Assembly (NCBI RefSeq): GCF_030316825.1 | Contig: NZ_JASZYU010000001.1 | Span: 2,046,001-2,110,000 of the forward strand | Length of the DNA stretch: 64,000 bases | Source of the DNA: Variovorax fucosicus | Lineage (GTDB): Bacteria; Pseudomonadota; Gammaproteobacteria; Burkholderiales; Burkholderiaceae_C | Reading direction: 5' to 3' | In this document: positions 21,919 to 43,854 of the stretch, piece by piece | Layout of the letters: the number at the start of each line of letters is the position of its first letter | How positions within the stretch are numbered: the stretch's first letter is position 1 | The notes under the pieces: generated by a model | What the model saw: only the letters and a program-made list of their open reading frames with translations | What the model was told of the DNA's origin: nothing | The model's database searches: none | Program-made: the position numbers and the translations under genes

Positions 21919-22008
21919 GGCGCCGTCGAACCGGCTTCGCCGGTCGACTGGCGCCGCCCCCGGCAGGGGGTTGGCGAAGCGGACACGAAGTGCCGCGCAG
22001 CCTGGGGG
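21919..22008 (-). repeat. Dispersed three-hairpin 3' element, copy 1
   Basis: Read on the minus strand, it starts 10 nt after the stop of the small ORF at 22019 and has the order CCCCCAGGC, hairpin A, hairpin B, hairpin C. A: GCGGCAC-TTC-GTGTCCGC. B: CCCCC-TGCC-GGGGG. C (21919–21955): outer stem GGCGCC/GGCGCC, middle GTCG/CGAC, inner CCGGC-GAA-GCCGG. It differs from the other three copies by paired substitutions in every segment of hairpin C. Confidence 0.88.
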
Positions 22009-22018
22009 CGAGCAACAG

Positions 22019-22234
22019 TTAAGCGGCGGCCAGCCAGTAGCCGGCGTTGAAAGGGCTGCTCATGCGCAGCGCCAGTGGCGAGACGTCGACCAACTTGTCG
22101 GTCGGCATTTTCTCGGCGTTGGGATCGGCGTTCAAGTCGATACCCGAGAGCACGTCTGTGCCCTGCGAAGCCTCGTTCGCCCGTTCTGCTTGGCTGGTGT
22201 GTGCAGAACGGGCTACAGAAAAGAATAGAAGCAC
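22019..22234 (-). CDS. Small ORF of unknown function after barstar (possible gene remnant)
   Basis: 71 codons from GTG 22234, overlapping the barstar end by 22 nt. It reads SGIDLNADPNAEKMPTDKL, then VDVSPLALRMSSPFNAGYWL, then AAA, compositionally protein-like and unlike a random high-GC frame. Its stop is followed, 10 nt on, by a dispersed element that elsewhere in the window always follows real gene ends. That context is the main support. It may be the 3' end of a gene cut by rearrangement, or a short peptide starting at ATG 22108. I recognise no family. Confidence 0.3.
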   Translation of the reverse strand: MLLFFSVARSAHTSQAERANEASQGTDVLSGIDLNADPNAEKMPTDKLVDVSPLALRMSSPFNAGYWLAAA

Positions 22235-22698
22235 CTGAACGGTATCTTCCGGTCTCCCCAGTAGTCGGAGGCGTCGCGGAAGATGTCGAGCAGCTGCTCG
22301 CGGGCTTCCTTGTCGAACTTGGCATTGGCCGGGATCTGCTCGAGCACGATCACGAAGCCGGGCTGCGGGCCCGATTTGTGCAACGGGTCGGTCATGCAGT
22401 CGTACAGCGCATCGAAGTTCTTGCCGAAGTGCGCCGGAAAGGTGAACTGCTGGGCGATCAGGTCGAGCACGTCCTGCTTGGTCTGGGCGTTGCCCAGATT
22501 GGCATACAGAAAGTGCTGGCCCGCCGAATGCGCCGCTTCCTGCAGGTCGCTCACGCGGAAGGCGCGAATCGACTGCACGATGTTCGGTCGCACGGCACGA
22601 AGGGATAAGGTCATCTCCGCTGGTCTTTCCATGGTTGTCGTCGTCATTTTTTCCAGGCGCTTCGGGGCGCCGCTCCAATCGAGTTCATCGCTGCTCAT
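22213..22698 (-). CDS. Barstar-family ribonuclease inhibitor
   Basis: 161 residues. The barstar core lies at about 65–155: QDVLDLIAQQFTFPAHF then GKNFDALYDCMTDPLHKSG is the inhibitory helix-loop that plugs the barnase active site, and LLDIFRDASDYWGDR precedes the last strand. An N-terminal ~45 residues extend the canonical 90-residue protein. It overlaps the barnase gene by 4 nt, so toxin and antidote are translationally coupled. It acts in the cytoplasm to protect against the RNase before export. Confidence 0.92.
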   Translation of the reverse strand: MSSDELDWSGAPKRLEKMTTTTMERPAEMTLSLRAVRPNIVQSIRAFRVSDLQEAAHSAGQHFLYANLGNAQTKQDVLDLIAQQFTFPAHFGKNFDALYDCMTDPLHKSGPQPGFVIVLEQIPANAKFDKEAREQLLDIFRDASDYWGDRKIPFRCFYSFL

Positions 22699-23108
22699 GG
22701 CACGATCCGCCGAAAGCTCGCGTAGTGGTCGGCCGTATACCAGCAGGCCACCGGTGTCGTGCGTTCGCCACCACAGACGATGCGCCGCGCACCGCGATCA
22801 CGCGAACCGGGGGTATCGACCGTGTATTCACGGTAGTGGCCACGCCGTTCCCGCGGCAGCAGTTGTTCGCGGTTGCCGAACACCGAGCCGTCTTTTTCAT
22901 GTCGGAAGGAACCACCGTTCAAAATGGCCGCGTAGGTTTTCTGCCCTTGCACCGGCAGTTCGGTCAACGCAATCGATTCCCGAACCGGCTGCCCGGCTTT
23001 GGTGCCGAACCACTCACGAGCCTGAACTCCGGTGCTCAACGCCACCAGCAACAAGCCGGTGATCGCAAAACTGGAAAAAGGGGACGTGTTCGGGGCGTTA
23101 GCCACCAT
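22695..23108 (-). CDS. Secreted barnase-type guanyl-specific ribonuclease
   Basis: 137 residues with a hydrophobic signal segment (FAITGLLLVALSTGVQA). The mature part is ~100 residues, as in the N1/T1 microbial RNases. Catalytic residues are placed as in barnase: Glu in YREYTVDTPG, Arg in ARRIVCGG and His in TADHYASF. It cleaves single-stranded RNA after G. Secretion plus a cytoplasmic inhibitor next door suggests export as a nutrient-scavenging or antagonistic RNase. Confidence 0.92.
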   Translation of the reverse strand: MVANAPNTSPFSSFAITGLLLVALSTGVQAREWFGTKAGQPVRESIALTELPVQGQKTYAAILNGGSFRHEKDGSVFGNREQLLPRERRGHYREYTVDTPGSRDRGARRIVCGGERTTPVACWYTADHYASFRRIVP

Positions 23109-42722: not shown

Positions 42723-42755
42723 CCCAGTTTCATACAACCATCCAGGAGCAAATCA

Positions 42756-43754
42756 GTGGCTATCAAGATCGGTATCAACGGCTTCGGCCGTATCGGGCGC
42801 ATGGTGTTTCGTGCGGCCGTGCAGAACTTCAAGGAAATCGAAGTGGTCGGCATCAACGACCTGCTCGAGCCCGAATACCTGGCCTACATGCTCCAGTACG
42901 ACTCGGTGCATGGCCGGTTCAGGGGTGAAGTCGCGGTCGAGGGCAACACCCTCATCGTCAACGGCAAGAAGATCCGCCTCACGCAGGAACGCGACCCGGC
43001 CAACCTCAAGTGGAGCGACATCGGCGCCGACGTGGTGGTCGAGGCCACTGGTCTGTTCCTGACCAAGGAAACCGGCCAGAAGCACATCGATGCGGGTGCG
43101 AAGAAGGTCGTGATGTCGGCGCCCAGCAAGGACGACACGCCGATGTTCGTCTACGGCGTCAACGACAGCACCTACAAGGGCGAGGCCATCATCAGCAACG
43201 CCAGCTGCACCACCAACTGCCTGGCGCCCGTCGCCAAGGTGCTGCACGACAAGTGGGGCATCAAGCGCGGCCTGATGACGACCGTGCACGCCACCACCGC
43301 GACCCAGAAGACCGTCGACGGCCCGAGCAACAAGGACTGGCGCGGCGGCCGCGGCATCCTGGAAAACATCATCCCGTCGAGCACCGGCGCCGCCAAGGCC
43401 GTGGGCGTGGTGATCCCGTCGCTCAACAAGAAGCTCACCGGCATGAGCTTCCGCGTGCCGACCTCCGACGTGTCGGTGGTCGACCTCGTGGTCGAGCTCG
43501 AGAAGTCGGCAACCTACGCCGAAATCTGCGCCGAGATGAAGGCCCAGTCCGAAGGCGCGCTCAAGGGCGTGCTCGGCTACACCGAAGACAAGGTCGTCTC
43601 GACCGACTTCCGCGGCGAGCCCCGCACCTCGGTGTTCGACGCCGAAGCCGGCATCGCGCTGGACGGCACCTTCGTCAAGGTCGTGAGCTGGTACGACAAC
43701 GAATGGGGCTACTCGAACAAGGTGCTCGAGATGGTGCGCGTGGTGGCGAAGTAA
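42756..43754 (+). CDS. gap: Glyceraldehyde-3-phosphate dehydrogenase, type I
   Basis: 332 residues from GTG 42756, with AGGAG 7 nt upstream. NAD loop [14 protein letters not shown]; catalytic [19 protein letters not shown] with the Cys near residue 155; His in [16 protein letters not shown]-terminal [16 protein letters not shown]. Standard homotetrameric GapA. Cotranscribed with tkt. A copy of the dispersed element starts 6 nt after its stop. Confidence 0.97.
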
Positions 43755-43760
43755 CGCTCG

Positions 43761-43854
43761 CCCCCAGGCTGCGCGGCACTTCGTGTCCGCTTCGCCTACC
43801 CCCTGCCGGGGGCAACACCAGCGGCCGGGCGAAGCCCGTTCCGCGGTGTTTCCC
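43761..43854 (+). repeat. Dispersed three-hairpin 3' element, copy 4
   Basis: A: GCGGCAC-TTC-GTGTCCGC. B: CCCCC-TGCC-GGGGG. C (43814–43850): outer AACACC/GGTGTT, middle GCGG/CCGC, inner CGGGC-GAA-GCCCG. A and B match copy 1, the outer stem of C matches copy 3, and the inner stem is unique but still paired. Confidence 0.88.

Follow-up and report, generated by a model that had tools for sequence, protein, structure and literature searches.

In the genome of Variovorax fucosicus, a GC-rich repeated unit of about 100 bp, built of three near-perfect palindromes, stands in the sense orientation directly behind stop codons, and this strict position is the main new fact about it. Four copies lie in the stretch analysed here, 64,000 nucleotides of contig NZ_JASZYU010000001.1 (positions 2,046,001 to 2,110,000 of the forward strand; the window). 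An earlier note, made from the letters alone, had recognised them as a three-hairpin element with compensatory base changes, and the tie to stop codons went unnoticed. Observations on structure, copy number, spread, strand, stop position, and presence or absence at orthologous junctions have led to the explanation put forward here: the element probably belongs to a mobile family of the Burkholderiales that resembles the repetitive extragenic palindromes (REPs), most likely the Betaproteobacterial repeat element (BRE), and is inserted or kept mainly behind stops in the sense orientation.

All positions rest on gene calls from a purpose-made caller trained on G+C content by codon position. The basic set consists of 22 full copies in 464 kb, that is, the window, which was chosen for its four copies, and an unbroken stretch of 400 kb from the same genome, which was taken whole, though some matches in it were known beforehand. 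In this set, 21 of the 22 copies are in sense with 0-12 nucleotides (nt) between the stop codon and the leading CCCCC, as expected of the 3' untranslated region (3'-UTR) location that had been suggested. Random intergenic insertion would give a sense place no more than 12 nt from a stop with a chance of 0.056, and the binomial probability of 21/22 is 1.2e-25 when copies are treated as independent. The element occupies 17 of 327 co-directional junctions, 4 of 57 convergent ones and none of 59 divergent ones (21/443 overall), so that 17 of the 21 junctions carrying it are co-directional.

The same placement is seen in loci picked by score or pattern, which partly overlap the 464-kb copies. The element is in sense behind a gene at 33/33 of the best-scoring loci of this genome (0-19 nt), at 27/32 genus loci (within 12 nt in 24 of them and at 21, 69, and 76 nt in the rest), at 21/23 family loci (all within 12 nt), and at 118/136 pattern-scan loci. 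Of these 118, 113 lie within 13 nt and the remainder at 99-202 nt, roughly the length of one or two elements, as tandem arrays would produce. Tandem copies are present at loci L115, L125, L288, L289, L290, and L292; those of Variovorax paradoxus 110B (L115, 2870-3059; L125, 4935-5130) are 0-2 nt apart. Over all loci, 194 of 223 distinct copies stand 0-13 nt behind a called same-strand stop, and 2 more at 19 and 21 nt. Of the copies in a genus of another family, 28 have a called upstream gene; 26 of these are in sense, and 22 of the 26 lie within 13 nt, some of these copies being mutual orthologs. The gap from the element to the next gene start varies widely, which identifies the stop codon as the anchor. 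The stop codon often overlaps the RGCTCR edge of the element, and TGA is the stop in 91 of the 194 stop-adjacent copies versus 69% of 447 genes. Among three plasmid records checked, one has an annotated coding-sequence end at the element edge and one is unannotated. No earlier account of the strict stop-codon rule, of the three-hairpin covariation, or of the second element type described below was found in the open-licence literature, and the available text of a Variovorax transcriptome paper (PMC7494200) does not mention the element.

Direct reading and alignment place the four copies, with their stems, where the earlier note had put them. The copies, the parts of copy 4, and the upstream genes are as follows.

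21919..22008, minus strand: copy 1 of the element (CCCCCAG plus hairpins A, B, and C), by direct reading, alignment, and covariance-model search.
26888..26980, plus strand: copy 2, by direct reading and covariance-model search.
30372..30464, plus strand: copy 3, by direct reading and covariance-model search.
43761..43854, plus strand: copy 4, by direct reading and covariance-model search.
43755..43760, plus strand: 5' extension of copy 4, CGCTCG (near the RGCTCR consensus), belonging to the repeated unit by the position-specific composition of 223 distinct copies.
43773..43790, plus strand: hairpin A of copy 4, GCGGCAC-TTC-GTG, bulged T, CCGC, the structure used in the pair counts and the covariance model.
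43799..43812, plus strand: hairpin B of copy 4, CCCCC/GGGGG, nearly invariant in sequence, from the pair counts.
43814..43850, plus strand: hairpin C of copy 4, with covarying outer, middle, and inner stems, from the fold of copy 4 and the pair counts.
25832..26887, plus strand: gene upstream of copy 2, with Band_7_1 and SHOCT domains (Pfam).
28833..30362, plus strand: gene upstream of copy 3, with a Spermine_synth domain (Pfam).
42756..43754, plus strand: gene upstream of copy 4, glyceraldehyde-3-phosphate dehydrogenase (Pfam).

Copy 1 is separated by 10 nt from the TAA of a frame ending at 22019, which has no Pfam match; copy 2 lies 0 nt from the TAA of the Band_7/SHOCT gene, copy 3 lies 9 nt from the TGA of the spermine/spermidine-synthase-like gene, and copy 4 lies 6 nt from the TAA of the dehydrogenase gene. 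The last of these genes is the second of a co-directional pair with transketolase (40602-43754). Elsewhere in the window, a seven-C run at 28488-28494, directly 3' of the stop of a DUF4178 gene, is possibly the edge of a decayed element.

Covariation was measured by counting pairs against shuffled copies and slid partners. In the 22 copies, the three-hairpin pairing is kept in 99.3% of cells and both sides change in 10 of 26 pairs (2/6 in hairpin A and 8/15 in hairpin C); hairpin B, CCCCC/GGGGG, shows zero variation, and both shuffled copies and slid partners fall short of the observed pairing. Thus the compensatory changes that had been read by eye in hairpins A and C are real. They persist in 62 copies from across the family (98.5% of cells paired, double changes in 13/26 pairs) and in 26 distinct copies from the other-family genus (98.3%, 11/26), both alignments having been fitted to the covariance model and so being biased towards its pairs. 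When copy 4 is folded alone, the minimum-energy structure puts hairpin A in another pairing register, and the leading CCCCC competes with hairpin B for GGGGG. The constant core across the family is CCCCCT-loop-AGGGGGC together with hairpin C, and hairpin A varies in sequence and size; in the other-family genus, the element is 77-99 nt long with a GC content of 71-82%, and a short GC hairpin mostly replaces A. Over the 223 distinct copies, the repeated unit is edged by RGCTCR upstream of CCCCC and by a purine-rich CGAARRR downstream. An extent of about 93 bp, as first given, therefore describes the four copies but not the repeated unit, which is longer and includes both edges. The sense frames of the 223 copies are nearly stop-free (27/669 with a stop versus 35% in shuffled copies), so that a read-through protein would run on through the element; this may be chance, the copies being related.

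A covariance model, R1, was built from the 22 copies. It gave at least 123 matches in this genome, where only 150 candidates were scored, and the 22 copies at a score of at least 45 in 464 kb suggest, by extrapolation, that it holds nearer 275 copies. Matches were obtained in 37/37 genomes of the genus, with none in 24 genomes of other families in the same sample, in 105/150 of the family, and in 12/300 of the order (few candidates being scored per genome); in one genus of another family, the element was found in 40/41 genomes, with up to 93 matches per genome. Thus, further copies do exist in related genomes, and the covariation holds when many of them are aligned. In a pattern scan of named genomes, 70 of the 80 matches listed are Variovorax, and the others belong to Curvibacter, Hylemonella, Rhodoferax, and bins named only to family or phylum; a Comamonas match came from a scan of plasmid records. 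Among 72,556 plasmid records, 6 contain the Variovorax form, and five of these 6 are large Variovorax replicons; among 50,697 phage records, none does. The other-family form occurs in 2 and 0 records of the same collections; plasmid- or phage-borne spread was rejected on these counts. A scan of E. coli records found the element in 0 of 20,395. The Rfam search proposed in the earlier note was unproductive: no family for the element was found in the whole window, and five matches around copies 1-3 (E 0.26-2.2) are all far under their gathering scores. The sole match that reaches its gathering score lies elsewhere, a manganese (yybP-ykoY) riboswitch at 3231-3416 on the plus strand (68.7 bits, cut-off 45).

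The surroundings of copies 2 and 3 were compared across 37 relatives in the genus, with one genome per species. This genome and 9 of the 37 relatives carry the element after the Band_7 gene. Of the 28 relatives that lack it, 15 reach the aligned start of the next gene after 0-21 nt, and 13 have 49-112 nt of different sequence there. After the spermidine-synthase-like gene, both flanks were located in 36 relatives; 7 of these, and this genome, carry the element, and the remaining 29 have 0-19 nt in its place. Whether a site is filled or empty, the stop position is the same in most rows. In a tree built from one gene of 37 genomes (this genome and 36 relatives), the junctions are filled in 10 and 8 genomes and require at least 6 changes each. 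Single junctions of a third stretch likewise carry the element in a minority of genomes. This presence and absence at orthologous places agrees with the REP-like character that the earlier note had listed among possible roles. Furthermore, one junction may hold different element subtypes in different genomes, which suggests repeated arrival or replacement. In a pair of genomes 93.7% identical, one site is cleanly empty and one copy has decayed; with only 4 copies (2 of them at one shared site), the pair offers too little material for a rule on boundaries or duplications.

Other repeats are found in the same kind of place. A second, related type consists of CCCCCGGC, a CACTTCGTG-like hairpin, CCCCCC/GGGGG, and then a different third hairpin like GCCGCCTTGGGGCGGC. 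It lies directly behind the stop at the junction orthologous to window position 28798 in seven relatives (L238, L239, L240, L251, L255, L262, and L264) and at four further places (L171, L205, L210, and L212). Unrelated hairpin repeats (GAGCCTGTCGAAGC/TTCGACAAGCTC and GGCGCCATG...AGCGCCTGACGCC) stand behind the stop orthologous to window position 26887, again in seven relatives (L251, L256, L259, and L260; L234, L236, and L253), as if this stop were a hot spot for hairpin repeats.

The assignment to BRE is probable, and it rests on likeness of description, not of letters. According to the available text of Hot et al. 2011 (PMC3110155), the BRE of Bordetella are 75-91 bp long with a mean GC content of 69%, are present in many copies (29 per genome at most), are mostly intergenic, form tandem arrays, and were recognised by more than 70% identity to a Bordetella reference copy; besides Bordetella, they occur in the Comamonadaceae Polaromonas, Delftia, Acidovorax, Rhodoferax, and Verminephrobacter. 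The element is similar to them in approximate length, in being GC-rich, in the taxa that carry it, and in its tandem arrangement, and Rhodoferax is common to the element matches listed and Table 2 of that paper. The other-family copies, with 77-99 bp and a GC content of 0.71-0.82, are in part longer and richer than the BRE range, and some of them stand in tandem. No array was found beside lexA (BRE locus 3) at the lexA loci of three genomes (L303-L305), where there was one match with E = 0.22. However, none of the BRE locus contexts is conserved in B. avium (PMC3110155, available text), and consequently this negative speaks only weakly against BRE identity. The BRE account, in its available text, contains no secondary structure, gene orientation, or position rule, whereas the element has all three; structure and position are thus added to it. 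The open-licence literature yielded nothing beyond BRE on such elements in Comamonadaceae; PMC2267715 surveys families of stem-loops, those of Bordetella included.

The paired changes had been taken in the earlier note to imply selection on structure, not sequence. If selection acted on the sense RNA, single changes that leave G-U should outlast those that leave A-C. Over 245 distinct copies the ratio is 47:40 (p = 0.52); it is 27:26 in 141 distinct copies retrieved with a pattern for the first 28 bases and 9:10 in the 90 best-scoring copies. As a control, 10 tRNAs gave 11:0, a small sample from a finder that may disfavour A-C. In addition, the antisense strand folds more stably than the sense strand in 223/223 copies. 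Given the 47:40 ratio and the antisense stability, there is no general sign of selection on sense RNA structure. The most fitting reading of the covariation between loci is consequently that palindromic source copies have diverged and that their palindromes would stay perfect through copying at the DNA level, recognition of single strands, or template switching; the 47:40 split fits a DNA palindrome, or mutation that perfects palindromes, better than a sense RNA under selection. In a mobile palindrome family, then, covariation alone is no proof of RNA selection. The statement in the earlier note was too strong for this reason and because much of the sequence is conserved, hairpin B being near-invariant. 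Its interpretation survives in part, in the spread, covariation, 3'-UTR location, and REP-like character, but not in the selection on structure only.

The wobble counts at resident sites are different. At the Band_7 junction, ten orthologous copies show 16 G-U versus 2 A-C and double changes in five pairs, and pairwise identity is 86% in paired columns, 82% in unpaired ones, and 55% in the ten columns behind the element. Six ortholog sets give 27 versus 7, and 42 copies from stretches taken whole give 18 versus 7, both mostly from that one junction; the model-fitted alignments give 35 versus 15 in hairpins B and C, a count biased towards G-U. Since the 18:7 and the 16:2 that forms part of it favour G-U, long-resident copies may be under sense-RNA selection, as indicated chiefly by one locus.

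Other observations as well as the pooled wobble count and the stabler antisense strand weigh against the proposed explanation. Among the 223 distinct copies, 20 have no called gene end nearby and 7 lie far behind one, and one annotated plasmid copy is more than 30 nt from its gene. Of the 38 loci of a Y1 (RAYT-like) transposase gene, the 13 examined have no element beside the gene. No target-site duplication is evident at the single clean empty site, and losses instead of gains, of which the one decayed remnant is an example, may be behind much of the patchiness.

A rival idea is that the element is selfish DNA only, a palindromic parasite that inserts or survives preferentially just behind stops, where it does least harm, and that is useless in mRNA. 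Paired changes would then reflect subfamily divergence together with template switching that perfects palindromes. The even pooled ratios, set against 11:0 in tRNA, the more stable antisense fold of every copy, and the patchy occupancy of orthologous junctions are all in line with this idea. It does not account well for the G-U excess at the Band_7 junction and in the sets dominated by it, for the model-fitted ratio, for the better conservation of the element than of the columns behind it, or for a sense orientation that is kept at convergent and co-directional junctions alike. We regard it as rather unlikely. A bolder form of the mobile-family explanation, in which a transposable element has its integration targeted to stop sites, in sense, in at least two Burkholderiales families and in at least two related types, is more tentative still.

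It is improbable that gene conversion or recombination, not transposition, has spread the element as a cis-acting 3'-UTR RNA under selection, one that stabilises the mRNA or is recognised by an RNA-binding protein. The sense position behind stops, the paired changes, and the wobble excess at one resident locus would suit such an RNA; the pooled wobble test is negative, and the element is missing from 27/37 and 29/37 genomes at the two junctions followed.

A strict REP moved in trans by the single-copy Y1 transposase of the genus has even less to recommend it. Like the REPs of REP/RAYT systems, the element is a short palindrome that lies mostly outside genes and has a high copy number, and a Y1_Tnp match above the Pfam cut-off is found exactly once in each of 38/41 genomes of the genus. 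However, the available text of PMC2817692 describes RAYTs as having REPs on their flanks in every case, whereas no copy flanks the transposase gene in the 13 loci examined; membership in such a system (a REPtron; see also PMC8266576) was rejected on this basis. Furthermore, the single-contig genome G035 has 21 element matches and no Y1 gene. The edges of the 223 copies are RGCTCR and CGAARRR, with no GTAG or CGTC terminal tag. The available text of PMC3733652 gives REPs as 20-40 bp long and states that GTAG REPs often provide the stop codon of the flanking gene, a habit comparable to the overlap of stops with the RGCTCR edge. The element, with its unit of about 100 bp, is longer, and it keeps mostly one orientation to genes, whereas REPs alternate. 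The element is therefore classed as REP-like, not as a REP/RAYT system. The Y1 gene itself (L228 and L336-L347) lies ahead of a gltB-like gene in this genome, and a TGTCCC...AATCTGACCCC-like stretch recurs behind it in the 13 loci.

Finally, an intrinsic transcription terminator is scarcely credible: the hairpins are GC-rich and at gene ends, and a T-rich tract occurs within 60 nt behind 62/223 copies, but such a tract directly follows hairpin C in only 2/223, 16 of the 22 copies lie between co-directional genes, and copy 1 has its own separate terminator-like hairpin. The absence of a U tract led to the rejection of this candidate. The separate hairpin, with its T run, lies 3' of copy 1 at window 21880-21902 on the minus strand.

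In the explanation favoured here, a mobile REP-like family, we infer mobility by an active enzyme, contact with the ribosome, and an effect on translation or decay. At the DNA level, the three palindromes would be copied around the genome by a factor acting in trans. At the transcript level, they would form three stem-loops that start inside the footprint of the terminating ribosome, and because of this the element would probably act like the stop-proximal REPs of E. coli. REPs less than 16 nt from a stop lower translation in that organism, according to the account of Liang, Rudd and Deutscher (2015) in the available text of PMC12306157, which gives 260/496, or 446/4,072, as so placed. The element has its stem-loops directly behind stops, within the same range; in E. 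coli the stop-proximal share is only partial, whereas it is 194/223 here, and the element is longer and has three hairpins. Since most copies are less than 16 nt behind the stop, a ribosome that terminates there would run into the first hairpin immediately. By analogy, termination or ribosome recycling would be slowed, and the hairpins could form a barrier to 3'-to-5' exonucleases at the end of the cistron. Neighbouring cistrons might then decay separately, both inside operons and at operon ends, a consequence proposed because 17 of the 21 junctions with the element are co-directional.

If the rule holds, hundreds of genes in each Variovorax-like genome carry the same structured element at their stop, and the family would be a plain example of a mobile repeat linked to the ends of translation. 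If integration is indeed targeted, a ready-made hairpin module would touch the terminating ribosome on hundreds of genes. In either case, the element offers a testable system for a question raised by the E. coli REPs, whether stop-proximal repeats tune termination and mRNA decay.

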